From assembly GCA_030019365.1 (NCBI GenBank), contig JASEFA010000007.1, positions 62,001 to 126,000 on the forward strand: 64,000 nucleotides of DNA, read 5' to 3'. How positions within the stretch are numbered: position 1 is the stretch's first letter; each line of letters begins with the position of its first letter. Shown in pieces: positions 7,438-55,275 of the stretch. Made by a program: the position numbers and the translations under genes. The notes beneath the pieces were generated by a model. It saw only the letters and a program-made list of their open reading frames with translations. It made no database searches and had not been told where the DNA came from. The stretch is from Bacillota bacterium (lineage in GTDB: Bacteria; Bacillota; Sulfobacillia; JACIYH01).

Positions 7438-8250
<813 letters not shown>

Positions 8251-31005: not shown

Positions 31006-31512
31006 ATGGGGGCGGTGGATGCCATGCCGGTCAACAGTGGGAACAATTCGCCTGATTCGCGCGGATATGCGCGGAAGGTCCGCTCCCAGGAGTTTCTGTA
31101 CATATTGCACCGCATCGATGGGCTGGATCGAACCCTCAGCGGTCGCATTGACTCCCTCGACCAAAAGCTGAGCGCGCGTATTGACGCGGTTGACGGGAAG
31201 CTCAGTGCGCGCATTGATACGCTCGAGCAGAGGCTGAGTGACTGGATTGCGGCGGTCGATGCGCGGCTGGACGGCCTCCGGCAGGAGTTCGGCAGCCGCC
31301 TGGGGGCGGTCGATGCGCGGCTGGACGGCCTCCGGCAGGAGTTCGGCAGCCGCCTGGGGGCGGTCGATGCGCGGCTGGACGGCCTCCGGCAGGAGCTGGG
31401 GAGCCGCCTGGAGACAGCGGAGCGGAGCCTGAGGTACTGGATCATCGGTACCATCGTTACCATGGTACTTGGTTTTGCCGGCCTGGTCACCACCGTCATC
31501 CTGACCAGGTGA
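31006..31512 (+). CDS. Coiled-coil protein with C-terminal membrane anchor and internal repeats
   Basis: I do not recognise a named family, although the pattern resembles bacterial DUF1640-like tail-anchored coiled coils. The 168-residue product starts with a short polar segment, then a continuous heptad coiled coil (repeats of the form IDxxDxKLSARID and AVDARLDGLRQEFGSRLG). It ends in a single hydrophobic helix (WIIGTIVTMVLGFAGLVTTV) and a short positive tail. ATG 31006 and ATG 31024 are both possible; 31024 has a better GGGGG ribosome site. It stands alone behind its own strong promoter. Confidence 0.8.
   Translation: MGAVDAMPVNSGNNSPDSRGYARKVRSQEFLYILHRIDGLDRTLSGRIDSLDQKLSARIDAVDGKLSARIDTLEQRLSDWIAAVDARLDGLRQEFGSRLGAVDARLDGLRQEFGSRLGAVDARLDGLRQELGSRLETAERSLRYWIIGTIVTMVLGFAGLVTTVILTR
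31252..31413 (+). repeat. 54-bp tandem repeat, three copies, in the coiled-coil gene
   Basis: Units begin at 31252, 31306 and 31360. The first two are identical by eye, and the third diverges near its end. Each encodes 18 residues (AVDARLDGLRQEFGSRLG). The high DNA identity marks a recent duplication or homogenisation rather than ancient protein repeats. Confidence 0.92.
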
Positions 31513-35740: not shown

Positions 35741-36700
35741 CTACTTGAGAGTCCAGCCGATCAGGCCCCTCACGTAGTAACGCTGCAGCAGGGCGAAGAC
35801 GAGGATGGGGACGGCTATGGTGAGCACCGAGGCCGCCGTCAGGATGCCCCAGTCCACGTGGTACTGGCCGCGCAAGAGCGGGATGCGCTGCGTGGCCACC
35901 AGCCGGCTGGGTTCGTAAAGCAGGATGAGGGCCATGAAGAAGTCGTTCCAGGCCCAGGTCAGCTGCAGGGCCGCGGCCGAAGCCAGCCCGGGAAGGCTGA
36001 GGGGCAGGATGACGTGCCAGAAGATCTGCAGGCGGCCGGCCCCGTCCATGAGGGCGGCCTCCTCCACCTCCCGGGGGAGAGTGGCGAAGTAGTTGCGCAG
36101 GAACATGATCATCCAGGGCAGCGCCCAGGCCGTGTGGGTTACCACCAGCCCGGCATAGGAGTTGATGAAACCGAAGTCTCGCAGTATGCGGAACAGGGGG
36201 ATGGCCACCATCTGTTGGGGCACCGCCAGCAGGAGGATGATGAGGGCGAAAAGCGGGGTGCGCGCGCGCGCCCGGGACCGGAGAAAGCCGTACGCGGCCA
36301 GGGAGGCGATGAGGAGCGGCAGCACCGTGGAAGGGATGGCCACCGCCAGAGAGTTGCGGATACCTTCCCCCATGGGGGCGGTGGGGTGATTCCAGGCACG
36401 CACGAAGTTCTCCGCAGAGAGAGTCGCCTGCCTGAATTGCCACCAGCCGTGGATCAGTTCCGGCTGGGGCCGCAGCGCGCTCATGAGGATGCCCAGGAAG
36501 GGCACGAGCCAGAGTAGGCCGACGAGCCAGGCCAGGGCATCGCGCAGGATGACGGCGGGTCGGAGGCGAGGCTTGCGCACGGGACGGCCGGCCGGGAAGG
36601 ACCCGGGAGTGCACACGGGGGCAGGTTGCCGCTCGGGCGCAGGTTGCCGCTCGGGCGCAGGTTGTTGCCGCTCGGGCGCAGGTTGCCAAACTACACCCAT
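35741..36700 (-). CDS. Carbohydrate ABC transporter permease, MalG/LacG type
   Basis: This 319-residue permease has six membrane helices and the EAA coupling loop EAALMDGAGRLQIFWHVILPLSLPG (about residues 215-239) of MalG-type CUT1 permeases. It has an odd N-terminal tail of about 40 residues made of PAPERQ repeats before the first helix. It starts 6 bp after the MalF-type permease gene. With the TreT-like enzyme in the operon, trehalose or a related disaccharide is a probable substrate. Confidence 0.92.
   Translation of the reverse strand: MGVVWQPAPERQQPAPERQPAPERQPAPVCTPGSFPAGRPVRKPRLRPAVILRDALAWLVGLLWLVPFLGILMSALRPQPELIHGWWQFRQATLSAENFVRAWNHPTAPMGEGIRNSLAVAIPSTVLPLLIASLAAYGFLRSRARARTPLFALIILLLAVPQQMVAIPLFRILRDFGFINSYAGLVVTHTAWALPWMIMFLRNYFATLPREVEEAALMDGAGRLQIFWHVILPLSLPGLASAAALQLTWAWNDFFMALILLYEPSRLVATQRIPLLRGQYHVDWGILTAASVLTIAVPILVFALLQRYYVRGLIGWTLK
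36621..36687 (-). repeat. 18-bp tandem repeat in the permease gene
   Basis: Two identical 18-bp copies (36621-36638, 36639-36656), a third with a 3-bp insertion and a partial fourth encode the PAPERQ tail at the permease N-terminus. The frame is kept in all copies. Confidence 0.9.
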
Positions 36701-42269: not shown

Positions 42270-44303
42270 CTAAGAGCGACGGGCGCGCAGGCGCCGCCAG
42301 AGGGTGGTGCGGCCTATGCCGAGCAAGGCAGCCGCCTGGGTCTTGTTACCCCCCGTCTGAATCAGGGCCTGACGGATGGTCTCGTCTTCCAGCTCGCCCA
42401 GGACACCTTTGCCCCTGCCGTCCTCCTTCGCGGCGGCCTTAGCGGTAGCCATGCTGGCACCGGTCGCCGCGGCGGTGGTGGGGACGCCTGATCGCGGTGC
42501 AGCGTGGGGGGAGGTGGCGGTGGGGGCCGGCGGGGCCGGGCGGGGGGCGCCAGCTGCGAGCGCGGTGGTAGAGGCAGGGGGCGAGGCAAGGGCAGGCCAG
42601 TCCAGGACGGCGGCGATGGCATCCCGCTCCAGGGTGGGCCCGTCCGTGAGGATGGCCAGGCGCTCCACCAGGTTGCGCAGCTCCCGCACGTTGCCGGGCC
42701 AATCCCATGCCCCCAGGAGGGCGAGCGCCTCCGGGGGGATGTCCTGCGGGCCGCGGCCGTAACGGTCGTGGAGTTCCCGGAGGATGGCGCGGGCCAGGAT
42801 GGGTACGTCCTCCTTGCGCTCGCGCAGGGGGGGAATGCTCAAGCGCAGTACATTCAGCCGATAGTAGAGATCGTCGCGGAAGCGACCCTGCCTCACCAGG
42901 TCGGCCAGGTTGCGATTGGTGGCCGCGATCACCCGCACGTCCACGGGGATGACCCTGTCGTCACCCAGGCGGGCCACCTCGTGCTGCTCCAGCACGCGCA
43001 GTACCTTGGCCTGCAGGCGCTCGGACATTTCCGCGATCTCGTCCAGGAAGATGGTGCCCCCGTGGGCCAGCTCGAACAGGCCGGGCTTACCGCCCCGGCG
43101 GGCGCCCGTGAAGGCGCCCTCCGCATACCCGAATAGCTCGCTTTCCAGCAGCTCGTCCGCCAGGGCGGCGCAGTTGACCGCCACAAAGGGCCCGTCGTGC
43201 CGGGGGCTGTCCAGGTGGATGGCCTGGGCGAACATCTCCTTGCCCGTGCCTGTCTCCGCCGTGATGAGCACGGTGGAATCCACCTGGGCGAAGCGGTGGG
43301 CCTGCCGGATGGCGTGCTTCATGGACGGGCTCTCGCCCTGGATGTCGGCGAAGGTCCAGCGGGCCACGTGCCCGCGGGCGGCCAGCTTGCGCCGGATGTT
43401 CTGCTCCAGACGCTGGATGCTCCCCACTTCCTGAAAGGTGGCCACCACCCCGGCGATGCGGCCGTTGACCAGGATGGGTACCCGGTTGGTTACGATGCGC
43501 GTTTTCCCAAGGTCCTGGATCTCCCCCAGTTCCGGCTTGCCGCTCCCCAGCACCTGGGGGAGGCGGGTGTTGGGGATCACCTCCGCGGCGGGACGACCGA
43601 TGACATCGCGGGCCCGCACCTGCATGATGCGTTCGGCCACCGGGTTGAAAACGGTGACTCTCCCGCTGGCGTCCACGGCCACGATGCCCTCGTAGGCGAA
43701 GTCGAGGATGGCCTTGATCTGCTCCGCCCGCTGCCGCTCCACCTTGCGCACCTGCAGCACGCGGGAGGCGTCCTCCAGGGCTACCGCCACCGCTTCCCGC
43801 CCGGAGTTGATGGTCACCCCGCGCATGCCGTAGCGCTCGGCCAGGCTGGCCATAACGATTTTCCCGATCACCACCCGGGCGCCGGCCGCCTTGAGGGCGG
43901 CGATGCCCCGTTCGATCTGGTCGTAGTCGGGCAGGGGGAACTTGATGAACGTCTGGCCCACGATTTCCTCCAGGCTTTCCGCCCCGCGCAGCACCTCGGG
44001 CAGGTCGGTGATGCCGATGGGGTGTCCCAGCTCGCGGGCACGGTAGTACGCATCCAGGAGGTCGTAGCCCGTGATGGGGATGTCCACCACAGGCAGGGAG
44101 ACAGCCGCGTTGTGGATCCACCAGGTGGTGGCTCCCCGGCTGATCAGAACTTCGGCGCCCTCCGCCTGGCAGGTGAGGGCCATCTCCACTCCCGTCTCCA
44201 TGCGGCCCACCATCACATCGACCTGTATCGCCAGTTCTGCCGCCACCCGCTCCACCATGTGGGCCAGTTCGCGATAGGGGGCAATGCAGACGATCTCCCG
44301 CAC
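42270..44303 (-). CDS. PrpR-type sigma-54-dependent transcriptional activator
   Basis: This encodes 677 residues. A PrpR N-terminal sensor domain (about residues 1-175; starts VREIVCIAPYRELAHMVERV) is followed by a PAS domain with GIVAVDASGRVTVFNPVAERIM. The AAA+ core has Walker A AETGTGKEM, the sigma-54 contact loop GAFTGA and Walker B GGTIFLDEIAEM. A Fis-type HTH (NKTQAAALLGIGRTTLWRRL) ends it. GTG 44303 follows GGGGGAGG; the longer frame from 44477 adds non-family sequence. PrpR domains sense carboxylates such as 2-methylcitrate. It diverges from a sigma-54 promoter across 194 bp and very probably activates it. Confidence 0.93.
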   Translation of the reverse strand: MREIVCIAPYRELAHMVERVAAELAIQVDVMVGRMETGVEMALTCQAEGAEVLISRGATTWWIHNAAVSLPVVDIPITGYDLLDAYYRARELGHPIGITDLPEVLRGAESLEEIVGQTFIKFPLPDYDQIERGIAALKAAGARVVIGKIVMASLAERYGMRGVTINSGREAVAVALEDASRVLQVRKVERQRAEQIKAILDFAYEGIVAVDASGRVTVFNPVAERIMQVRARDVIGRPAAEVIPNTRLPQVLGSGKPELGEIQDLGKTRIVTNRVPILVNGRIAGVVATFQEVGSIQRLEQNIRRKLAARGHVARWTFADIQGESPSMKHAIRQAHRFAQVDSTVLITAETGTGKEMFAQAIHLDSPRHDGPFVAVNCAALADELLESELFGYAEGAFTGARRGGKPGLFELAHGGTIFLDEIAEMSERLQAKVLRVLEQHEVARLGDDRVIPVDVRVIAATNRNLADLVRQGRFRDDLYYRLNVLRLSIPPLRERKEDVPILARAILRELHDRYGRGPQDIPPEALALLGAWDWPGNVRELRNLVERLAILTDGPTLERDAIAAVLDWPALASPPASTTALAAGAPRPAPPAPTATSPHAAPRSGVPTTAAATGASMATAKAAAKEDGRGKGVLGELEDETIRQALIQTGGNKTQAAALLGIGRTTLWRRLRARRS

Positions 44304-44355
44304 GCTTTTCCTCCCCCGACCACCTTCGCTGTTCCGGCCCATGTTTCCTTGTGGA

Positions 44356-44422
44356 ACGCCCGGGCTGGCACGCCCGGGCTGGAACGCCGGGGCGGAATGA
44401 AACAGTTCTGGTGCCGGGCACC
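44356..44422 (+). promoter_or_regulatory. Probable upstream activator sites for the PrpR-type regulator
   Basis: ACGCCCGGGCTGG occurs at 44356-44368 and again at 44370-44382 (14-bp period), with a partial third copy after it. Each contains the palindrome GCCCGGGC. A further perfect palindrome GGTGCC-G-GGCACC lies at 44410-44422. They lie about 75-100 bp (repeats) and 35-45 bp (palindrome) before the -24 element, where activator-binding sites usually stand. Confidence 0.6.
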
Positions 44423-44455
44423 TGACGCGGTGCGGCTTTCCCGGGAGCGGTGCCC

Positions 44456-44471
44456 TGGCACGCGCCTTGCT
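44456..44471 (+). promoter_or_regulatory. Sigma-54 (-24/-12) promoter of the oxidoreductase operon
   Basis: TGGCAC (44456-44461), five bases, then TTGCT (44467-44471) matches the sigma-54 consensus TGGCAC-N5-TTGCW exactly, with GG and GC dinucleotides correctly spaced. The start site would be near 44481, just ahead of an AGGAGGGGG ribosome site for the first gene. A sigma-54 activator gene lies immediately upstream on the other strand. Confidence 0.92.
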
Positions 44472-44497
44472 ACCCATGGGAGGAGGGGGTGAGACGG

Positions 44498-44758
44498 GTG
44501 CTGCATCCCGCTCCCGGCTCCGACCGGCCGGGAAGCGCCGCCCTGGCGGCCAGGGGGCCGGTGCGATTTCCCGCTCCCCGGCTGCGGGGAGAGCGGTGTG
44601 ACGGCTGTCTCCTGTGCTATTACTTCTGCCCTGACGGGGCCGTCGACCCGGGACCTCCGGTCCGGGTGGTGGCGGAATGGTGCAAGGGATGCGGCATCTG
44701 TGTGCGCGAGTGCCCTCGCCAGGCTCTGGAAGGGGGGGAGGGCTTCTGTTCGTGCTGA
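44498..44758 (+). CDS. 2-oxoacid:ferredoxin oxidoreductase delta subunit (2x[4Fe-4S])
   Basis: This 86-residue ferredoxin subunit has two [4Fe-4S] motifs: CDGCLLCYYFCP and CKGCGICVRECP. It resembles PorD/KorD, which passes electrons from the catalytic subunits to external ferredoxin. The GTG at 44498 lies downstream of the predicted transcription start and follows AGGAGGGGG by about 8 bases; an upstream GTG at 44450 would overlap the promoter and is rejected. The short Pro/Ala-rich lead before the clusters is usual. It overlaps the alpha-subunit start. Confidence 0.88.
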   Translation: MLHPAPGSDRPGSAALAARGPVRFPAPRLRGERCDGCLLCYYFCPDGAVDPGPPVRVVAEWCKGCGICVRECPRQALEGGEGFCSC

Positions 44759-45912
44759 TAGATGGAAACCGGGCCGCGGCCGAGGCGGCCTGCCTGTGCG
44801 GGGTCGAGGTGATCCCGGTCTACCCCATCACTCCCGCCTCTCCCGTCATGGAGCACCTGGCGGCCATGATCGACGGGGAGCGCCTGAAAGCGTGTCTCCT
44901 GGTGGTGGAGTCCGACCACAGCGCCCTGGCCGCTGCCGTGGGTGCCAGCCTGACGGGGGCGCGGGTGTTCACCGCCACCAACTCTCAGGGTCTGGCTTAC
45001 ATGAGCGAGTTGCTCTACCACGCCTCGGGCCTGCGCCTTCCCATCGTGATGGCGGTGGTCAACCGGGCCATGTCGGCACCCCATTCCCGGTTCGCGGACC
45101 AGGGAGACGCCCTGGGGCAGGAGGCGGCGGGATGGATCCAGTTCCACTGCGAGAGCGCCCAGGAGGTGCTGGATACCGTCATCCAGGCCTTCCGGGTCGC
45201 CGAGGATCCCCGCGTGCAGCTGCCGACCATGGTCAACTACGAGGCGTACGTGATCAGCCACACGGCGGAACCGGTGGGGGTACCGGAGCCCGCCGCCGTG
45301 CGCGATTTCCTGTGCCACCGTCCCCGCCAGGTCCTGGATCCCGGGCATCCCCGGGCGGTGAACACGGTGGCTTCCCACGCCTGGTACCAGCGCTTCCGGC
45401 AGGCCCAGCACGGCGCCATGGCGGGGGCGGAGGGCGTTATCACGCAGGTGGCGGCAGAGTTCGCCGAGGCTTTCGGGCGCACGTGGAACGGCCTGCTGGA
45501 GGAGTACCGTACCGACGATGCTTCCACCCTGCTGGTGGTGATTGGTGCCCCCGCCAGCACGGCCCGCATCGCGGTGGATTCCCTGCGAGAGAGCGGGCTG
45601 GCGGTGGGGATGATCAAGATCCGCTGCCCGGTACCCTTTCCCCGGGCGGCGTTCCGCCGGGCCGCGGCCACGGCACGGGAGCTGGTGGTCGTGGACCGCA
45701 ATCTCATCCCCGGCCAGGGGGGATTCCTGGCCCGCCAGGTGAGGGCGGCGGTGGCGGAGATGCCTTCCGCGGTCCAGCCGCGGGTGGTGGGGGTGGTGGC
45801 CGGGCTGGGAGGCGGCGACATCGAGGTGGAGGACCTGGTGCGCGTGACCGTGTCGGCGTCGGACCTGGCGGCGGATGCGGCGGGAGGGAACTGGTTTGTC
45901 GCGGCGGGCTGA
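44752..45912 (+). CDS. 2-oxoacid:ferredoxin oxidoreductase alpha subunit
   Basis: This 386-residue subunit of a pyruvate/2-ketoisovalerate-type ferredoxin oxidoreductase binds the pyrimidine side of thiamine diphosphate. It shows GNRAAAEAACLCGVEVIPVYPITPASPVMEHLA at the N-terminus, FTATNSQGLAYMSELLYHASGLRLPIVMAVVNRAMSAP, and a C-terminal transketolase-like domain (LVVVDRNLIPGQGGFLARQV). The domain order is that of PorA/VorB. GTG 44752 overlaps the delta stop codon. The four subunit genes run delta-alpha-beta-gamma. The substrate (pyruvate, branched 2-oxoacid or other) cannot be fixed by eye. Confidence 0.92.
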   Translation: MLIDGNRAAAEAACLCGVEVIPVYPITPASPVMEHLAAMIDGERLKACLLVVESDHSALAAAVGASLTGARVFTATNSQGLAYMSELLYHASGLRLPIVMAVVNRAMSAPHSRFADQGDALGQEAAGWIQFHCESAQEVLDTVIQAFRVAEDPRVQLPTMVNYEAYVISHTAEPVGVPEPAAVRDFLCHRPRQVLDPGHPRAVNTVASHAWYQRFRQAQHGAMAGAEGVITQVAAEFAEAFGRTWNGLLEEYRTDDASTLLVVIGAPASTARIAVDSLRESGLAVGMIKIRCPVPFPRAAFRRAAATARELVVVDRNLIPGQGGFLARQVRAAVAEMPSAVQPRVVGVVAGLGGGDIEVEDLVRVTVSASDLAADAAGGNWFVAAG

Positions 45913-45913
45913 C

Positions 45914-46798
45914 GTGGGGGTACGGCTGCGGGAGCTGATGCCTCCGGCGGCGGATGAGGGCTTTTCACCGGGCCACCGGGCCTGCCCGGGCTGCGGCGCC
46001 ACCATTGCCCTGCGCCAGGCGCTGCTGGCGCTGGGGCCGCGGGTGATCGTGGTGGTGCCCGCCTCGTGTGTGGCCAGCATCGGGGGCTGGGACGACGTCA
46101 CCGCCTGGCGGGTGCCCTTCTACCACACTCTGTTTCCCTGCGCGGCGGCGGCGGCGGCCGGGATTGCCGCTGGCCTGGCGGCCCGGGGAAGGCGCGGGGT
46201 GACCGTGGTCTCGTGGGCGGGGGATGCCGGTAGCGGTGACATCGGCCTGCAGGCCCTCTCGGGGGCGGCCGGACGTGGCGACGACGTGCTCCACGTGTGC
46301 TACGACAACGAGGCCTGCATGAACACGGGGGGCCAGGCCAGCGGCCTGACCCGACCGGGCGCGTCCACCAGCACCACCCCGGCCGGGAAGGCAACGGCCA
46401 AGAAGGATCTTCCCCGCATCATGCTGGCGCACGGGGTGCCGTACGTCGCCACCGCCAGCATCGCCTATCCCGACGACTTCGCCGGCAAGCTGCGCCGGGC
46501 GGCGTCCCGGAGCGGCTTCCGCTATGTGCAGGTGCTGGCGCCCTGCCCCCTGGGCTCGGGATACGAGCCGTACCGCACGGTGGAGATGGCGCGCCGGGCG
46601 GTGGAAGAGGGGGTCTGGCCCCTCTGGGAAGCCGAGGAGGGCCGGGTGCGGCCCACACGGCGCGGCCGGGCAACGCAGGGCAAACCGGCCGGGCGGCGCG
46701 GACCGCTGAGCGCGCCGGGCGGGGGGCGCGGGAGCGGAGTGGCCCGCGAGCAGGGGGTGCACCCTGGCGATGGGGGGCGTGATGGTGCCGGGACATGA
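45914..46798 (+). CDS. 2-oxoacid:ferredoxin oxidoreductase beta subunit
   Basis: This 294-residue catalytic subunit binds thiamine diphosphate diphosphate/Mg and a proximal [4Fe-4S] cluster. The cluster Cys pair RACPGCGATIALRQ is near residue 25, the ThDP motif WAGDAGSGDIG...DNEACMNTGGQ follows, and a late APCPLG Cys completes the set. The last 45 residues are a Gly/Arg-rich tail beyond the family's end, which overlaps the gamma gene by 29 bp. GTG 45914 directly follows the alpha stop; ATG 45938 with a weak GGAG is an alternative. Confidence 0.9.
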   Translation: MGVRLRELMPPAADEGFSPGHRACPGCGATIALRQALLALGPRVIVVVPASCVASIGGWDDVTAWRVPFYHTLFPCAAAAAAGIAAGLAARGRRGVTVVSWAGDAGSGDIGLQALSGAAGRGDDVLHVCYDNEACMNTGGQASGLTRPGASTSTTPAGKATAKKDLPRIMLAHGVPYVATASIAYPDDFAGKLRRAASRSGFRYVQVLAPCPLGSGYEPYRTVEMARRAVEEGVWPLWEAEEGRVRPTRRGRATQGKPAGRRGPLSAPGGGRGSGVAREQGVHPGDGGRDGAGT

Positions 46799-47276
46799 TC
46801 GCGGTGCCACCGAGATCCTGCTGTGCGGGTGGGGGGAGCAACCCCTGCTCCAGCTGGGGCTGGCCCTGGGGCGGACGTTCCTCGACCGGGGCATGATGGT
46901 GCAGGTGCAGCCCTCCTTCGGCAACGTGCGGCCGGGTGCACCCGGCTGGGTGGCGGTGCGTGTGGGGCGGTGCTATGTGCGGGAGCGGGGGCGGCAGCGT
47001 CCCCGGCCCCAGCGCGTTCTTTGCCTGGACCCTGCCCTGACGGGGTGGGCCTCCCGCCTGGCCAGGGGGGGTTCCGCCGACACGGCCCCCATCGGCATCG
47101 TCCCCATCGACGTGATCCCCACCGACGTCGCCCCCACAGGCGCCGTCCCTGGGGACGCTGCCCCCGCCGGCGTGGTCGGCGGCGGGGCGGCCGGGCCCGA
47201 TTGGCTCCAGCGGCTCATACCGGAGATGCTGAGCCTGGTGGAAGGGGGAGATAGCCGGGATGCTGGTGAGAGATGA
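46770..47276 (+). CDS. Divergent 2-oxoacid:ferredoxin oxidoreductase gamma subunit
   Basis: The 168-residue product occupies the gamma-subunit position. Its first 75 residues keep the gamma pattern in altered form: EILLCGWGEQPLLQLGLALGRTF in place of the usual GxGGQGV..AG segment, and VQPSFGNVRPGAPGWVAVRVG in place of PSYGPExRGG. The second half, normally the rest of the domain, is a low-complexity run of Pro-Ile/Thr/Ala-Asp/Gly units (about 47082-47180) and a short amphipathic end. It may be a degenerate or specialised gamma subunit. ATG 46782 is an alternative start. It overlaps both neighbours. Confidence 0.75.
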   Translation: MGGVMVPGHDRGATEILLCGWGEQPLLQLGLALGRTFLDRGMMVQVQPSFGNVRPGAPGWVAVRVGRCYVRERGRQRPRPQRVLCLDPALTGWASRLARGGSADTAPIGIVPIDVIPTDVAPTGAVPGDAAPAGVVGGGAAGPDWLQRLIPEMLSLVEGGDSRDAGER

Positions 47277-48030
47277 CCTCTGTACCGGTTGCGGGCTGTG
47301 CGAGCCTTACTGTCCGGTGGGTGCCATAGCCATCGAAGATGTGGCGGTGATCGATCAGGATCGCTGCGTCGAATGTGCTATCTGCTATCGCTCGGGGGTC
47401 TGCCCCCTGGATGCCCTGGAGTTGCCTGCGCTCACCTGGCCCCGGCTGGTGCGGGCCTTGTTTTCCGACCCGCTGCTGGCCCATCCCGGTACCGGAGTGC
47501 TGGGTCGCGGCACCGAAGAGATGAAGACCAACGACGTCACCGGTCGTTTTCAGCCCGGTCAGGTGGGGGTGGGGATCGAGCTGGGCCGCCCCGGGATGGG
47601 TACGTCTTTCCGGGACGTGGAGGTGATGGCCACCAGGCTGGCTGCCCTGGGCATCGGGTTTGAGCCCGAGAACCCGGTCACCCAGCTCATGGTGGACGGC
47701 ACGGGGCGCCTGCGCCCGGACGTGCTGGACGAGCGCGCCCTCTCCGCCATCATCGAGCTCACCATCCCCCAGGACCGGTTGCTACCGGTGCTGGCCGCGG
47801 TGCGGGAGGCGGGTGCGCTTATCGAGACCGTGTTCAGCCTGGACGTGATCGTGCCCGACCCTGGGCAGCGGGCGGAAGAGGTGGCCCGCCTCTGCCGGGA
47901 GGCCGGCTTCGCGACGCGGCCCAACGGCAAGACCAACGTGGGCCTCGGCCACGGCCGCGCTGGGCCGGCTGGGGGCGCAGGCGGAGGGGCGGCGGGATGC
48001 GCGGGCGCTGGGGAGGGGGTGCCGCGGTGA
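47260..48030 (+). CDS. Ferredoxin-fusion protein of unknown family (copy 1 of pair)
   Basis: This 256-residue protein has an N-terminal two-cluster ferredoxin domain. The first cluster is CTGCGLCEPYCP. The second, CVECAICYRSGVCP, has five residues before its last Cys instead of three. The remaining 190 residues are a domain I do not recognise, with the motif GRGTEEMKTNDVTGR near residue 90, VGIELGRPGMGTS, GIGFEPENPVTQLM and a late ETVFSLDV. A collinear paralogue is encoded at 53873-54628. ATG 47260 follows a GGGGGAG site. It overlaps the gamma gene and the next gene (GTGA), so it is translationally coupled to the oxidoreductase. Confidence 0.82.
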   Translation: MLVRDDLCTGCGLCEPYCPVGAIAIEDVAVIDQDRCVECAICYRSGVCPLDALELPALTWPRLVRALFSDPLLAHPGTGVLGRGTEEMKTNDVTGRFQPGQVGVGIELGRPGMGTSFRDVEVMATRLAALGIGFEPENPVTQLMVDGTGRLRPDVLDERALSAIIELTIPQDRLLPVLAAVREAGALIETVFSLDVIVPDPGQRAEEVARLCREAGFATRPNGKTNVGLGHGRAGPAGGAGGGAAGCAGAGEGVPR

Positions 48031-48686
48031 CGCACACGCTGCACAGGCAGGGGTCGGGTGACCTCGTCGGTGACTACGTGGTGCTGGTGATGGGCGCCAA
48101 AGGATTCACGCGGGAGGGGGCGGCACCCGCCCTGCGCCGCTGCCTGGAGGTGATCCTGCGGCACGATCCGGTGAACTGGGGCGACGGTCGCACGGGCAAC
48201 GCTTTCTCCCGCAGCCGGGAAGAGATCCTGGCCGGCATGGGCGACAACTCCGTCATCCACGGGGTGTTCACCGACCCGGAGACGGTGGCGCGGGTGCTGG
48301 ATGAACTCCGGGAGCTGGACACGGGCATGTCGGTGGTGGTTTCGGGTCTCTTCAACCGCGTGCACCCATGTGTGCGGGGGGCGGGGCTGGAACCGCACAC
48401 CATCGAGTTTTCCCTGGGCGTGCACGGACGGGTGGAGGGCCTGCCCTCCGACCGGCTGGTGATGGGCATCCAGACCATGTGCGGCCACGGCATGGTTTCC
48501 TACCACCTGATTTCCCACCTGGCCGGGGAAGTGGCGGCGGGACGCCTGGGCGCGGACCGGGCGGCGGCCACCATGGCCGCCAACTGCCACTGCGGCGTGT
48601 TCAATCCCCGCCGGGCGGCGCAGCTCATATCCGAACTGGCCCGCCGGGGCGCGGCGTCGTCGAGGGGGGTGGGAGCGTCGGGCTAG
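48027..48686 (+). CDS. Unknown Cys/His-motif protein (copy 1, partner of the ferredoxin-fusion protein)
   Basis: I do not recognise this 219-residue soluble protein. It starts VTHTLHRQGS and has DPVNWGDGRTGNAF near residue 50, EFSLGVHGR near 135, TMCGHGMVSYHL near 155 and NCHCGVFNPRRA near 190. The last two, a CGH and a CxCG, recur in its paralogue at 54625-55275 and could bind a metal or Fe-S cluster. GTG 48027 overlaps the stop of the ferredoxin-fusion gene and follows GGGAGGGGG by 8 bases. The fixed pairing of both paralogues suggests a heteromeric complex. Confidence 0.8.
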   Translation: MTHTLHRQGSGDLVGDYVVLVMGAKGFTREGAAPALRRCLEVILRHDPVNWGDGRTGNAFSRSREEILAGMGDNSVIHGVFTDPETVARVLDELRELDTGMSVVVSGLFNRVHPCVRGAGLEPHTIEFSLGVHGRVEGLPSDRLVMGIQTMCGHGMVSYHLISHLAGEVAAGRLGADRAAATMAANCHCGVFNPRRAAQLISELARRGAASSRGVGASG

Positions 48687-48759
48687 CGGGGAACTGACAC
48701 GATGGCGGCCGGTTACGGGAAGAGGAACCGTGCGAGGCAGAGAAAGGGGGAATCCGCAG

Positions 48760-49743
48760 GTGCAACGGTCAAAGGCCCTGGCTCTGGGCCTGGCGGTCCT
48801 GATGCTGCTGGCTGTGGCAGCAACGGGTTGTGCCGGCCAGAAGAAGGCCGCATACCCCGAGAAGCCCATCGAACTCGTGGTACCGTATGCGCCCGGCGGC
48901 GGCAGTGACGTGCTGGGCCGCCACATCGCTGACATCGTGCAGAAAGAGAAGATCCTGCCCCAGCCCTTCAACGTGGTGAACAAGCCGGGGGCTGGTGGCC
49001 AGGTGGGCATGAGCTACGTGAACACCAAGAAAGGTGATCCCTACGTCATACTCACGTTCATAACCGGGCAGGTTTCCGGCCCCAAGACGGTACCAGGAGC
49101 GGTGCCCGCGTCGGTGTTCACGCCCGTTGCCAGGCTGGCGCTGGACGAAGAGTGCATCGTGGTGAAGATCGACTCCAGGTACCAGACCATCGAGCAGCTG
49201 ATGGAGGCGGCCAAGCAGGGAGAGAAGGCAGTTTCTATGGGCGGTACGGCGGTGGGTCAGGAAGACCAGATGGTTACCGTGATGCTGGAGCAGGCTTCGG
49301 GCGTGAAGTTCAACTACATCCCCTTCGACTCCGGTGGAGAGGTCATGAAGGCCCTGCTGGGCGGGCACATAGATGCCGCCTGGGCCAACCCCAATGAGTG
49401 TGTCTCCCAGGTGGACGGCAGCCTGGCCAAGGTGATCGCGGTGGCCGCTCCGCAGCGCCTGAAGAAGTGGCCCGATGCGCCCACCCTGAAGGAGAAGGGG
49501 TACGACGTGGTGTTCGAGCAGTTCCGCGGCATCGTGGGCCCGCCCGAGATGCCCCAGGATGCGGTGAAGGTCCTGGCGGAGGCCTTCAAGAAGCTGTCGG
49601 AGTCGCAGGACTGGCAGAGCCGGTACATCGAAAGGAACGCCCTTACGTCCGCCTACCAGGGACCGGACGAATTCGCGGCCTACATGAAGGAAGTCGACCA
49701 GCTGACCACCGAGCTGCTCAAGGCCCTGGGACTCGTCAAGTGA
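48760..49743 (+). CDS. tctC: Tripartite tricarboxylate transporter substrate-binding protein
   Basis: This 327-residue lipoprotein has a signal with lipobox AATGC near residue 24 and a Bug/TctC fold: YPEKPIELVVPYAPGGGSDVLGRHIA, VVNKPGAGGQVGMSYV and FNYIPFDSGGEVMKALLGGHIDAAW. TctC-type receptors bind citrate, other carboxylates or aromatic acids. GTG 48760 follows AAAGGGGG by 9 bases; GTG 48730 would extend a polar lead before the signal. It heads a complete TctCBA set within the sigma-54 array, 73 bp after the unknown pair. Confidence 0.92.
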   Translation: MQRSKALALGLAVLMLLAVAATGCAGQKKAAYPEKPIELVVPYAPGGGSDVLGRHIADIVQKEKILPQPFNVVNKPGAGGQVGMSYVNTKKGDPYVILTFITGQVSGPKTVPGAVPASVFTPVARLALDEECIVVKIDSRYQTIEQLMEAAKQGEKAVSMGGTAVGQEDQMVTVMLEQASGVKFNYIPFDSGGEVMKALLGGHIDAAWANPNECVSQVDGSLAKVIAVAAPQRLKKWPDAPTLKEKGYDVVFEQFRGIVGPPEMPQDAVKVLAEAFKKLSESQDWQSRYIERNALTSAYQGPDEFAAYMKEVDQLTTELLKALGLVK

Positions 49744-49815
49744 GCGATGGCGCGCCCGGCGCGGGACGCACGGTCCTGCGCCGGGCCCTCCTCCCCCTTA
49801 TGGAGGCAGAATGCC

Positions 49816-50259
49816 ATGAGCGTTGATTCTGTGTTGGGTCTGGTGGCTTCGGTGGGAGGGTTGCTGCTCATCTGGCAGGGCTGGGTGCTGGGGTACTGGG
49901 TGCACCTGAGCGGTCCCGGTCCCGGGTTCTTCCCGGTGGTGCTGGGGTTGCTGCTGCAGCCGGTGGCCGCCCTGCTGGTGGTGGGGGGCAGGTCGGTCAA
50001 GGAGGGGTCTGAATGGGACCGGGGTCGCCTGGGGGCGATAGGGGCGGGGGCGCTGGCGTTCGCCGTCACCATCTGGCTGGTCAGCTGGCTGGGGATGCTC
50101 GTCGCCGTCGGCCTGTATACCCTGGGGTGGCTGCGGCTGGTGGGGAGGTACCCCTGGCCCCGGGTGGTGGCCATTGCGGCGGGCACCGTGGTGGCGGTGT
50201 ACCTGATCTTCGTGCTCTGGCTGAGGGTGCCGTTTCCCACCGGCATCCTGCCGCTCTGA
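49816..50259 (+). CDS. tctB: Tripartite tricarboxylate transporter small membrane subunit
   Basis: This 147-residue protein has four hydrophobic helices and the TctB pattern GPGPGFFPVVLGLLLQPVAALL after the first helix. TctB proteins are poorly conserved small subunits that work with TctA. ATG 49816 follows GGAGG by 9 bases, and the frame upstream to 49747 has no family sequence. It sits between tctC and tctA in the canonical order. Confidence 0.88.
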   Translation: MSVDSVLGLVASVGGLLLIWQGWVLGYWVHLSGPGPGFFPVVLGLLLQPVAALLVVGGRSVKEGSEWDRGRLGAIGAGALAFAVTIWLVSWLGMLVAVGLYTLGWLRLVGRYPWPRVVAIAAGTVVAVYLIFVLWLRVPFPTGILPL

Positions 50260-50271
50260 GGGGGCGAGCCC

Positions 50272-51795
50272 ATGGATATCTGGTCTTACCTGGGGCAGGG
50301 TTTCCTGTCCGTGTTTCAGCCCCAGCACCTCCTGTTCTGCATCATCGGCGTGGTGGCGGGGCAGGTGATCGGCGCCCTGCCCGGGATCGGTTCCGTGTCG
50401 GGGGTGGCGCTGCTCCTCCCCCTCACCTTCGGCATGGATCCCGAGTCGGCCATCATCATGCTCACCGGCATCTACTACGGCTGCATGTACGGCGGTACGG
50501 TGAGCGCCGTGCTCATCGACATCCCCGGAGACTCGGCGGCCATCATGACCGGGCTGGACGGATACCAGCTGGCCATGCGGGGGCGGGGCGGGCAGGCCCT
50601 GTTCATGGCGGCGGTCGGTTCCTTCATCGCCGGCACCTTCGGCATCCTGATGCTCACCCTCTTTGCCCCCCCGCTGGCCCGCTTCGGCCTGCGTTTCGGT
50701 CCCCCGGAGACGACTGCCCTCATGCTCCTGGCCCTCACCAGCCTGGGCTGGCTCACCGGTGAGTCCGCCGCCAAGGGGCTTCTCTCCGCCCTCCTGGGGT
50801 TGTTCCTGGCTGTGATCGGGGTGGACAGCGTCTCCGGGCGCCCCCGCTTCACCATGGGGGTCATCGACCTCATGGACGGGATTCCCTTTCTGCCCATCGT
50901 CATCGGGATATTCGGGATTACCCAGGTACTGCTCTGGCTGGAGAGCCGGGCGCACTGGAAGGTGATGAAGACCAACCTGGGGTTGCGCGCCATCCTGCCT
51001 TCCGTGCAGGAGTGGGCGGTATCGAAGTGGGCCATCGTGCGGGGAACCATCATCGGATTCTTCGTGGGGCTGATGCCGGGCGCGGGTGCCACCACCGCCT
51101 CCTTCCTGTCCTACACCATAGAGCGGCAGTCGTCCCGGCACCCCCACCTGTTCGGGAAGGGGGCCATCGAGGGCGTGGCTGCTCCCGAATCGGCCAACAA
51201 CGCCGCCGCCATCGCCGCCTACGTGCCCCTGCTATCCCTGGGCATCCCCGGCTCCGCCACCACGGCGGTGCTCATGGGCGGGCTCATGCTGTGGGGGTTG
51301 CGGCCGGGGCCCCTCCTGTTCCGGGACGCCCCCGAGTTCGTGTGGGGCCTCATCGCCAGCATGTACGTGGCCAACTTCCTGCTCCTGGCCGTGAACACCC
51401 TGGCCATCCCCCCCATGATCCGCATCCTGAGCATCCCGGCCCCGGTGCTGATGGCCATCGTGTCCGTGATCAGCATCGTGGGCGCCTACTGCGTGGACAA
51501 CAGCGTCTTCGACATCTGGCTGGCCCTGGGGGCGGGGGTACTGGGGTACTTCATGAACAAGCTGAAACTGCCCGTGCCCCCGGTGGTCCTGGGCCTGGTG
51601 CTGGGGCCGGACCTGGAGACGGCCATGAGGCAATCATTCATGCTTTCCAAAGGGTCGGTGGCCATTTTCTTCACCCGGCCCATTGCCCTGGGTCTGCTCA
51701 TCGCCACGGCGCTTTTCCTCAGCGCCCCGGCCATCGGTGGGCTGATCCGCAGGCGCCGGGCGGCGGTCCCCCGGGAGGTGCCCGCGAGCAGGTAG
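50272..51795 (+). CDS. tctA: Tripartite tricarboxylate transporter large membrane subunit
   Basis: This 507-residue protein has about twelve helices. Family motifs include GQVIGALPGIGSVSGVALLLPLTFGM near residue 25, YYGCMYGGTVSAVLIDIPGDSAA, FFVGLMPGAGATTASFLSY and GVAAPESANNAAAIAAYVPLLSLGIPGS. It is the cation-coupled transport unit of the TTT system. The ATG follows GAGGGGGCGAG and starts 12 bp after tctB. Together with a PrpR-type sensor this argues that the array is induced by, and imports, a carboxylate. Confidence 0.94.
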   Translation: MDIWSYLGQGFLSVFQPQHLLFCIIGVVAGQVIGALPGIGSVSGVALLLPLTFGMDPESAIIMLTGIYYGCMYGGTVSAVLIDIPGDSAAIMTGLDGYQLAMRGRGGQALFMAAVGSFIAGTFGILMLTLFAPPLARFGLRFGPPETTALMLLALTSLGWLTGESAAKGLLSALLGLFLAVIGVDSVSGRPRFTMGVIDLMDGIPFLPIVIGIFGITQVLLWLESRAHWKVMKTNLGLRAILPSVQEWAVSKWAIVRGTIIGFFVGLMPGAGATTASFLSYTIERQSSRHPHLFGKGAIEGVAAPESANNAAAIAAYVPLLSLGIPGSATTAVLMGGLMLWGLRPGPLLFRDAPEFVWGLIASMYVANFLLLAVNTLAIPPMIRILSIPAPVLMAIVSVISIVGAYCVDNSVFDIWLALGAGVLGYFMNKLKLPVPPVVLGLVLGPDLETAMRQSFMLSKGSVAIFFTRPIALGLLIATALFLSAPAIGGLIRRRRAAVPREVPASR

Positions 51796-51837: not shown

Positions 51838-52428
51838 TTGGAGATCGTGGTTGATCCGGGCCGCTGCATGGCCTGCCGTTCCTGTCAGGTGGCCTGTGCC
51901 CTGGCCCGCGATTCGGCCTCCCGCACCCTGGTAGGGGGGCTGGGGGAAGACCCTCAGCCCCTGCCCCGGGTGTCGGTGCGGGAGAGCCCGCTGCCGCTGG
52001 CGATCCCAGAGGCGCGGGGAGATAGCCCGGGCCAGCCGGCGGCGGCAGGTTTGCCCGTGCAGTGTCGCCACTGCCTGGATGCTCCCTGCCTGGACGCCTG
52101 CCCGACGGGAGCCATGCACAGGCCGGAGGCGGAAGGTGCGGTACTTTATGACGAGGCCAAATGCATGGGTTGCCTGATGTGCGTGGCCGTCTGCCCCTTC
52201 GGGGCGGTCAGGCCGGGGCACGGAGGCCGGGTGTCCAAGTGCGACCGCTGCACGCAAATGGAGTACCCCTTCTGCGTGGACGCCTGCCCCACCGGAGCTC
52301 TCCAGTACCGGGAGCGCGCGGCCTGGCAGGAAGTGGCGGCTACGCGGCAGGGAGCTCTCATGAAAGCGCTGGCCCTGGTATGGGAAGGAGGCACCGCAGG
52401 TGAGGACACTGCGCAAGAGAACGGCTGA
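51838..52428 (+). CDS. CooF-like polyferredoxin (four [4Fe-4S])
   Basis: This 196-residue electron-transfer protein has four Cys motifs: CMACRSCQVAC, CRHCLDAPCLDACP, CMGCLMCVAVCP and CDRCTQMEYPFCVDACP. This is the layout of CooF/DMSO-reductase-B type subunits. A Pro/Arg-rich insert of about 50 residues follows the first motif. It precedes and overlaps by 29 bp a CooS-like gene, as CooF does in CO dehydrogenase loci. The start is TTG 51838, 8 bases after AGGAGGTG; a 14-codon frame (51813-51854) overlaps this start. Confidence 0.9.
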   Translation: MEIVVDPGRCMACRSCQVACALARDSASRTLVGGLGEDPQPLPRVSVRESPLPLAIPEARGDSPGQPAAAGLPVQCRHCLDAPCLDACPTGAMHRPEAEGAVLYDEAKCMGCLMCVAVCPFGAVRPGHGGRVSKCDRCTQMEYPFCVDACPTGALQYRERAAWQEVAATRQGALMKALALVWEGGTAGEDTAQENG

Positions 52429-53869
52429 CCCTCTTACCGAGCAACTGATGGCTGATTCGAGGGGAGGATCGTGGCCATCGCTTTGGGACAGGTTTGAGAA
52501 GCAGGTGCCCAACTGCGCCTTCGGCCAGATGGGGCTGTGCTGCCAGGCGTGCAGCCAGGGGCCGTGCCGGGTAGATCCCTTCGGGCAGGTGGAGGCCACC
52601 AGCTGCGGGCGCACCCGGACGGGGCTGGTGGCCAGCGAGTTCTGCCGCCAGGTGGCCCAGGGGGCCGCCGCGCAGCTGACCCATGCCCTGCGGTCGGGCG
52701 GGGAGGGCGGCAGGGGGGATCCGGCCCCGGTCCTGGAGGCAATGGAAGTGGCACGCGAGGGGGACCGCTCCCCGGAAGATACCCTCATGGCGGCGGTACG
52801 GGCCGCCCTGGCGGGGACGTCCGCCCTCGCCATGGTGCCTGCGGATGGGGCCACCGCCCGGGGAAAGGCTGGCCTGGCCGCCCTGCGCCGGGACGAACCC
52901 AACGTACTTCTGGTGGGCCGGTTCAGTGCTGCCCCGGCGGCGCTCGCGGCTGGCCGCGACGCCGGGGTGAACGTAGGCGCAGCCTGCGGTGCCGAAGGTG
53001 AGGGGCGGTTCCGCGTGGCCGGGGATTACGGATCGCAGGAGGTGCTGGTGACCTCGGGAGTGGTCGATGCCGTGGTGGCGGGCGAAGCCTGCGTGGCCCC
53101 CGGCCTGGAGAAGGCAGCCCAGGCCGCGGGTGTTCCCTTCTTCCGTGGCGGCCCGGTGGACGTGGCCGGGGTGGTGCGCGCCGCAGAGGGGCACTTCCGG
53201 CGGGCGGCGGGGCGGTCGTCGCGACCCTGGCCCGACGGGCCCGAAGCAGTGGTAGGCCTGGGCAGGGTCGCCCGCGAGGTGCTGGCGGGAGCTGCGGCCG
53301 TATCCGGGCTGCGGGGCGTGGCCTGGCTGGGTGGTTGCAGCAACGCCAGGGTCACGCACCGGGGAGCCATCCTGGACCAGGCCCGCGCCCTGCTGTCTGC
53401 CGACGTGCTGGTGCTGGCTTCCGGCTGCGCGGGTGCGGCCCTGGCCGCGGCCGGCCTGCTCGATCCCGATCGCCGCGAGCACTCCGTGGGCCGGGGGCTG
53501 GCTGAGGTCCTGGGCCGCGCGCAGAAGGCTACCGGCCTGGGATTGCCGCCCGCATGGCACCTGGGTACCTGCTGGTCCGACGGCCACACGCTGACCCTGC
53601 TCGCCGACCTGATCCGGGCGGGTGTGCCGGTGCTGGCTTCCTTCCCGGAGGCATCGCGGCCGGCGGCCTGGGCCACGGCGGTGGCGGCGGCAGCACGGGG
53701 CATCCCCACTTATCTGGGTCCTGTGCTGCCCCTGGACGGCACCAGGGAAGCCCGCGACATGTTGGGGCGGGTGCTGCAGGAGATGGGCGGTAAGACCCTG
53801 GTGGGACCGGGACAGGTGCGCAAACCCGAGCAGGTGGCGGCGGTGCTGTGGGATGGGGAGGGGGCGTAG
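52400..53869 (+). CDS. Shortened CooS-like (Ni-Fe CO dehydrogenase family) protein
   Basis: This 489-residue protein belongs to the CooS/Hcp superfamily but is about 150 residues shorter than CooS. The D and B cluster cysteines sit at 39, 47, 48, 51, 56 and 69, almost the numbering of Carboxydothermus CODH-II (39, 47, 48, 51, 56, 70). Five C-cluster cysteines also appear conserved (196, 231, 313, 343, 391). The C-cluster His (His261 in CODH-II) falls on Arg174 (VGRFS), and the catalytic Lys563 region has no Lys. About 100 residues between B and C clusters and about 30 later ones are missing. GTG 52400 follows GGAAGGAGG. Function is unlikely to be ordinary CO oxidation. Confidence 0.85.
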   Translation: MRTLRKRTADPLTEQLMADSRGGSWPSLWDRFEKQVPNCAFGQMGLCCQACSQGPCRVDPFGQVEATSCGRTRTGLVASEFCRQVAQGAAAQLTHALRSGGEGGRGDPAPVLEAMEVAREGDRSPEDTLMAAVRAALAGTSALAMVPADGATARGKAGLAALRRDEPNVLLVGRFSAAPAALAAGRDAGVNVGAACGAEGEGRFRVAGDYGSQEVLVTSGVVDAVVAGEACVAPGLEKAAQAAGVPFFRGGPVDVAGVVRAAEGHFRRAAGRSSRPWPDGPEAVVGLGRVAREVLAGAAAVSGLRGVAWLGGCSNARVTHRGAILDQARALLSADVLVLASGCAGAALAAAGLLDPDRREHSVGRGLAEVLGRAQKATGLGLPPAWHLGTCWSDGHTLTLLADLIRAGVPVLASFPEASRPAAWATAVAAAARGIPTYLGPVLPLDGTREARDMLGRVLQEMGGKTLVGPGQVRKPEQVAAVLWDGEGA

Positions 53870-53872
53870 GCG

Positions 53873-54628
53873 GTGCAGGTTGATGCGGAGAAGTGCGTGG
53901 GCTGTGGCCAGTGCATCCCCTTCTGTCCGGTGGATGCCCGTAGCCTGGGCAGGTTACCCGGGCACGGCCGGGTGACCCTGATCATCGACTCCGACCGTTG
54001 CGCGGAGTGTGGCGTGTGCCTGCGCTCGGGCATCTGCCCCACCGACGCCATGTACCAGGAAGCCCTGGAGATGCCCCGTCTGATCCGGGCCATCCTGTCC
54101 GATCCCCTCATCGAGTTCAAGGCCACCGGAGTGCCGGGACGGGGTACCGAGGAGATCAAGACCAATGAGATCACGGGACGCATCCGGTTCGGTTACGCCG
54201 GTGTGGGTATCGAGATGGGCCGTCCCGGGGTGAGCACCTCCTGGGAGGACGTGCAAGAGGTGACACGGGCTATGGCCAAACTGGGGGTCGGCTTCTGCGA
54301 AGGCAACCCGGTTACCCATTTCATGGCGGACCGGAACACCGGGGATCTCGAGCCCGACGTGGTGAAGGAAAAGTCGCTTTCGGCCATCATTGAGTTCGAC
54401 GTGTCCCTGGAGAAGCTCCCCGAGGTGTTGCGGGTGTTGCAGGAGATCACCCCCCAGCTCGAAACCGTCTACACGCTGGAGGTCTCCTGCAAGGTGCATC
54501 CCGACGGCACCCTGCCCGTGCTGCCCATCATTGAGCAGGCGGGGTATACCGTGTTGCCCAACAGCAAGAACAACCTGGGGATGGGCCGGCCGCGGTTCCG
54601 CGAGCCGGGAGAGGAGGGTGTGGCATGA
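53873..54628 (+). CDS. Ferredoxin-fusion protein of unknown family (copy 2 of pair)
   Basis: This 251-residue protein is a collinear paralogue of the one at 47260. It has the same two-cluster ferredoxin domain (CVGCGQCIPFCP; CAECGVCLRSGICP with five residues before the last Cys), then GRGTEEIKTNEITGR, VGIEMGRPGVSTS, GVGFCEGNPVTHFM and ETVYTLEV. Unlike copy 1 it has no Gly/Ala tail. It starts 3 bp after the CooS-like gene and overlaps the next gene (ATGA). The unknown domain probably works with a ferredoxin-dependent enzyme in both contexts. Confidence 0.82.
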   Translation: MQVDAEKCVGCGQCIPFCPVDARSLGRLPGHGRVTLIIDSDRCAECGVCLRSGICPTDAMYQEALEMPRLIRAILSDPLIEFKATGVPGRGTEEIKTNEITGRIRFGYAGVGIEMGRPGVSTSWEDVQEVTRAMAKLGVGFCEGNPVTHFMADRNTGDLEPDVVKEKSLSAIIEFDVSLEKLPEVLRVLQEITPQLETVYTLEVSCKVHPDGTLPVLPIIEQAGYTVLPNSKNNLGMGRPRFREPGEEGVA

Positions 54629-55275
54629 CCCACAGCCTGCACCGCCGCGGTTCCCGGGAGAGCCTGGAGAAGGACTTCGTGGTGCTGTCGTGCTCGGCGA
54701 AGGGGTTCAACGACAACGTCTTCGGCCAAAAGGGCAAGGAGTTCCTGCGCATCTGCCTGCGCCATCATCCCGTGAACTTCGGCGACATGAAGACGGGGAA
54801 CTTCCTGAGCGTCGATCCGGAGGAGGTCATCGCCCGCGTCTCCAACACCACCATCCTGGAAGTCACGTACGACAGCAAGCAGGACGTGGTGGAGCTTATG
54901 CGCGACCTGAAGGAGGCGGACCTGGGAGTTTCGGTAATCATCTCCGGATTGCACGACGTGGTGGAGGACATCGTGCGCCAGGTGGGCCTGAAGCGCATCC
55001 ACACTCGGGAGTACTCTCTGGGCACCCATGGTCGGCTGGAACTATTGCCGGAGTACGAGGTCCTGGAGTTCACCACCATGTGCGGCCATGCCATGGTGGC
55101 GTCCGGACTGGTCAAGCACATGATCGCCCAGTGCAAGCTGGGACGCCGTTCCCTGCGCGATGCGGCGGTCACCATGGGGAAGTGCTGTTCCTGCGGCAAC
55201 TTCAACGTCAACCGCGCCCAGGACCTGCTGGCCCGCAACCTGGGGCTCTGGGTCGCCGACTGGCCAATCTACTGA
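54625..55275 (+). CDS. Unknown Cys/His-motif protein (copy 2 of partner)
   Basis: This 216-residue protein is the paralogue of 48027-48686. Shared elements are MTHSLHRRGS at the start, HHPVNFGDMKTGNFL near residue 50, YSLGTHGRLE, TMCGHAMVASGL and KCCSCGNFNVNRA near the end. The CGH and CxCG motifs are thus conserved between copies while surrounding residues differ, which supports functional Cys/His ligands. The start ATG overlaps the stop of the ferredoxin-fusion gene, as in the first pair. No known family comes to mind. Confidence 0.8.
   Translation: MTHSLHRRGSRESLEKDFVVLSCSAKGFNDNVFGQKGKEFLRICLRHHPVNFGDMKTGNFLSVDPEEVIARVSNTTILEVTYDSKQDVVELMRDLKEADLGVSVIISGLHDVVEDIVRQVGLKRIHTREYSLGTHGRLELLPEYEVLEFTTMCGHAMVASGLVKHMIAQCKLGRRSLRDAAVTMGKCCSCGNFNVNRAQDLLARNLGLWVADWPIY

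Follow-up and report, generated by a model that had tools for sequence, protein, structure and literature searches.

A sigma-54 promoter beside a PrpR-like activator gene, with GTTTCA/TGAAAC-type candidate sites, ahead of a predicted organic-acid operon in a Bacillota bacterium

The closest described system is PrpR-prpBCDE of Salmonella and E. coli, in which an activator with a PrpR_N domain is encoded divergently from a sigma-54-dependent operon. The Salmonella PrpR enhancer is given as CGTTTCATGAAACG (Table 1 of the review PMC4987338, citing Palacios and Escalante-Semerena 2004), and in the E. coli prpR-prpB intergenic region we count five GTTTCA/TGAAAC half-sites ahead of TGGCACACCCCTTGCT, against 0.12 expected from composition shuffles. 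One-component enhancer-binding proteins (EBPs) with PAS and PrpR_N domains have also been described in the Clostridiales (Nie et al. 2019, PMC6615313). These proteins combine PrpR_N with a Fis-type HTH, adjoin the operon that is their expected target and have sites upstream of a -24/-12 promoter; the portions of the study considered here identify no group with the operon described below.

We analysed a window of 64,000 nucleotides from contig JASEFA010000007.1 of a Bacillota bacterium (assembly GCA_030019365.1). Its arrangement follows that of PrpR-prpBCDE: a PrpR_N activator is divergent from an operon with an exact TGGCAC-N5-TTGCT promoter, candidate GTTTCA/TGAAAC-type sites lie upstream, and the recognition helix of the activator reads LGIGRTTLWRRL, compared with LGISRTTFWRRL in E. 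coli PrpR. Several features set it apart. The activator has an added PAS domain, the operon consists of oxidoreductase and TctCBA genes and holds no prpBCDE, the candidate sites are degenerate, and a GC-rich tandem array is present; furthermore, the published Salmonella site has no spacer, whereas the dyads found here and in relatives are spaced by 3–4 bp.

The activator gene (42270–44303, minus strand) encodes a PrpR-like sigma-54 EBP made up of PrpR_N, PAS, AAA+ and Fis-type HTH_8 domains. Its start was taken as the GTG at 44303–44301, since homology starts there and the gene of the sister species has its start at the equivalent position. Three Pfam families score over their cut-offs, namely PF06506 (PrpR_N, 142 bits against a cut-off of 29), PF00158 (Sigma54_activat) and PF02954 (HTH_8). 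An earlier note on this DNA had described the divergent gene as encoding an activator with a GAFTGA motif, and this is borne out: the motif lies at residue 397, within a protein that has both PF00158 and HTH_8. Against the NCBIfam PrpR equivalog TIGR02329 the protein scores 387.3 bits, below the cut-off of 499.2, and its neighbours are not prp genes; the family assignment is therefore to a PrpR-like protein and not to PrpR itself. An ortholog 91% identical was found in one sister genome only (G002), so that the conservation footprinting rests on two sequences. The DNA-binding helix of that ortholog, GGNKTQAAALLGIGRTTLWRRLRA, is nearly identical to the one in the window.

The exact -24/-12 consensus that the earlier note had reported is present as TGGCACGCGCCTTGCT (TGGCAC-N5-TTGCT, 44456–44471, plus strand). 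It is the sole match in the window at up to one mismatch, but shuffled windows yield a mean of 1.89 such matches, so a promoter is not provable from one window. The whole genome holds ten exact occurrences of TGGCAC-N5-TTGCW, compared with one for the reversed control pattern, and about five of the ten are noncoding and lie no more than roughly 1 kb from an EBP gene. About 12 strong EBP genes were found in the genome, as was rpoN (PF04552, E=8.8e-56), with an intact RpoN box, SRRTVAKYR; the earlier note had made its promoter reading depend on the presence of this gene. The sister species retains the promoter element, as TGGCACGCCGCTTGCG, in the same intergenic gap and with a different last base. 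The element is 81% identical there with all core bases intact, while two stretches upstream are 32% and 41% identical. A consensus search found no sigma-70-like site in the region and none for the activator gene. Taken together, sequence comparison confirms the predicted sigma-54 promoter as real. Transcription would be expected to start near 44482, about 12 nt past the -12 element, a position overlapping the ribosome-binding site (AGGAGG at 44481); translation from GTG 44498 would then give a leader about 16 nt in length.

The first gene behind the promoter (44489–44758, plus strand) encodes a PorD-like two-cluster 4Fe-4S ferredoxin with Fer4 domains, and its coding sequence is conserved with the sister species. 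Translation begins at GTG 44489 or, more likely, at GTG 44498, which follows the AGGAGG. Next on the same strand come PorA-like alpha (44752–45912; PF01855, PF17147) and PorB-like beta (45875–46798; PF02775) subunits of a 2-oxoacid:ferredoxin oxidoreductase, which score below the cut-offs of the corresponding NCBIfam models (376 bits against 550 for PorA_Arch and 300 against 405 for PRK11864). A tripartite tricarboxylate-type transporter is encoded further downstream (48730–51795, plus strand) by tctC (48730–49743), tctB (49747–50259) and tctA (50272–51795), with PF03401, PF07331 and PF01970 over their cut-offs. We infer an operon running from the ferredoxin through the PorA/PorB-like pair and two unnamed genes to TctCBA. 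In genome G030, too, a ferredoxin and a PorA-like gene come after the activator (L032), as judged by eye. Behind other relatives lie aconitase-like, CoA-transferase-like, malate-dehydrogenase-like or lyase-like genes, also recognised by eye, and these neighbours suggest organic-acid catabolism for the activator group as a whole.

The two unnamed genes form a conserved pair that occurs twice in the window (47260–48030 with 47997–48686, and 53873–54628 with 54625–55275). Beyond an N-terminal ferredoxin in protein A, neither product received a Pfam or NCBIfam name. Protein A joins that 4Fe-4S ferredoxin to about 180 aa of unknown fold; protein B has invariant MTH..HR, MCGH and C.C motifs. Of the 154 genomes of the class, 22 encode B, many of them in several copies, and at each of the 30 loci examined A adjoins B. 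When solved structures were searched by profile with the pair, only the ferredoxin part gave matches. The same gene run includes a 489-aa protein (52400–53869) that matches the CO dehydrogenase/prismane family over the C-terminal part of the latter only; it scores 163 bits against a CODH cut-off of 478 and may be a non-CODH relative.

To place the activator's likely binding sites we turned to its relatives, collected from the class (154 genomes) and from named genomes. The GTTTCA/TGAAAC motif was derived from sequence before it was compared with the site in PMC4987338. Upstream of -24/-12 elements, members with RTTLWR or TTTLWR helices have half-sites that are repeated or paired as GTTTCA-N3/4-TGAAAC-type dyads: GTTTCATACGCGAGATTGAAAC and GTTTCGTAGCGAAAC lie between activator and promoter in L140 and L061, respectively, GTTTCAAAACGAAAC and TTTTCAAATTGAAAC lie upstream of the promoter in two members from Spirochaetes (L064 and L065), and GTTTCATTACTGAAATGTTTCAG does so for a paralog in the source genome itself (L154). 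A Desulfosporosinus member (L062) has four copies of GTTTCA and one of TGAAAC before its promoter. In dinucleotide shuffles, the sites of many RTTLWR-type members reached p<=0.02, while those of members with other helices mostly did not, and the GTTTCA site was absent from the regulatory regions examined in L146, L148, L151 and L152. Unbiased 6-mer enrichment over 26 relatives ranked GAAACA/TGTTTC third and GTTTCA/TGAAAC only eighth; the clear signal is thus limited to members with RTTLWR-type helices. Two members with variant helices, L033 and L063, have GTTGCA-N3/4-TGnAAC-like dyads (GTTGCATTCTGCAAA and GTTGCATAATGTAAC), hinting that changes in the helix may shift the half-site. The L062 region (7908–8210, Desulfosporosinus sp. 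FKB), with its five half-sites upstream of an exact sigma-54 promoter and beside a PrpR_N activator gene, is better preserved than the window as a model of the family's enhancer.

Candidate sites of this type can also be recognised in the window. A dyad, GTTTCCTTGTGGAAC (44343–44357), matches GTTTCA-N3-TGAAAC at 10 of 12 positions about 113 bp upstream of the -24 element (p=0.016 in dinucleotide shuffles). A single TGAAAC (44398–44403, plus strand), the half-site shared with relatives and with E. coli, lies 58 bp upstream of the -24 element (p=0.099 alone). As a control across the genome, TGAAAC occurs within 200 bp upstream of only two of the ten exact promoters, both beside PrpR_N activator genes. 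Degenerate and modestly significant as they are, these two elements are the best candidates for the activator's sites, ahead of the GC-rich repeats nearby, and the earlier note was probably wrong in its choice.

That choice had fallen on two exact 13-bp copies of ACGCCCGGGCTGG (44356–44368 and 44370–44382), at a 14-bp period, and on the GGTGCCGGGCACC palindrome nearer the promoter. All of these sequences are present. The copies belong to a tandem array (44352–44397, plus strand) that Tandem Repeats Finder describes as 3.4 copies of TGGAACGCCCGGGC with period 14. We consider it unlikely that the copies, perhaps together with GGTGCCGGGCACC, are the enhancer. The array does lie upstream at a plausible distance and is more regular than Markov chance would produce, and every unit begins with a hexamer, TGGAAC or TGGCAC, that differs from TGAAAC at one or two positions. 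However, its period of 14 bp is not helical, and its sequence is unlike the GTTTCA/TGAAAC sites of relatives, of E. coli and of the published Salmonella consensus. Scanning the genome for further copies, as had been proposed, found this one place only, and a search allowing 3 mismatches over 27 positions did not find the array in two congeners. One of these is the sister species with the same activator and promoter, where the region corresponding to 44358–44397 is 32% identical. Since that species keeps a near-identical helix as well as the promoter, a required binding site should persist there, and the array does not; on these grounds, and on that of the family's site type, the GC-rich repeats were rejected as the enhancer. 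The palindrome (GGTGCC-G-GGCACC, 44410–44422) was rejected as an activator site on its frequency: the window holds 31 perfect palindromes with 6-bp arms and a 1-bp loop, and this one, not found in the corresponding region of the sister species, is probably there by chance. Thus, of the arrangement read as enhancer-binding activation, the promoter with its exact consensus, the divergent EBP gene, rpoN and an expected start near 44482 stand, and ACGCCCGGGCTGG and GGTGCCGGGCACC as enhancer sites are not supported.

What, then, is the array? It begins at the TGGAAC arm of the 44343–44357 dyad, and TGGAAC recurs at 44380. Direct repeats of at least 13 bp with periods up to 40 number ten in the window, compared with 0–1 per 64 kb of second-order Markov sequence, and most of the ten are unrelated to promoters; slippage products therefore appear to be common here and mostly unconnected with promoters. 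Other tandem arrays in the window lie at 17808–17913 (15-bp units), 31251–31411 (54-bp) and 36616–36687 (18/21-bp). Most likely, the array is a lineage-specific slippage expansion from the candidate dyad's TGGAAC arm, and it is probably not the conserved recognition sequence of the PrpR-like family. We hold it doubtful that, by multiplying this weakened arm, tandem duplication has rebuilt an enhancer out of degenerate half-sites to replace the perfect dyad of the sister species, TGAAACAGATTGTTTCA, which is unique in that genome.

The degeneracy of the candidate sites could instead mean that the activator's sites have decayed or moved, with activation from solution or from elsewhere and the intergenic motifs as remnants. 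The window has one exact half-site to the sister species' three, and no TGAAAC-N5-GTTTCA dyad with up to one mismatch occurs anywhere in the source genome. Decay is nevertheless improbable in our judgement, as the two species share 80% identity over the first dyad, against 32–41% over the adjacent spacer. Least credible is a chance -24/-12 match, with the operon driven by another promoter: about two matches per window are expected at one mismatch and the predicted start is close to the ribosome-binding site, but the match is exact, adjoins an EBP gene and is retained by the sister species, exact sites are in tenfold excess over the control in the genome, and the region has no sigma-70-like site.

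We therefore return to activation of the promoter by the product of the neighbouring PrpR-like gene, which we infer with good support. A putative organic-acid ligand would bind the PrpR_N domain of this one-component activator, which would next assemble into oligomers on GTTTCA/TGAAAC-type sites in the intergenic gap, with 44343–44357 and 44398–44403 as candidates. DNA looping would bring the GAFTGA loop to RNA polymerase-sigma-54, and ATP hydrolysis by the activator would open the promoter at 44456–44471, leading to transcription of the operon. As a whole, the model of a sigma-54 promoter served by a PrpR-like activator on sites of this type, with the array as a product of slippage, seems to us probable.

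Altogether, the analysis assigns a specific activator, a promoter and a likely type of binding site to an anaerobic organic-acid operon that had been uncharacterised. It is likewise a caution: a repeat, however striking, may stand beside a promoter without being the site of its regulator. Finally, the results indicate that the recognition sequence of enterobacterial PrpR is common to PrpR-like activators of uncultured Bacillota and others.
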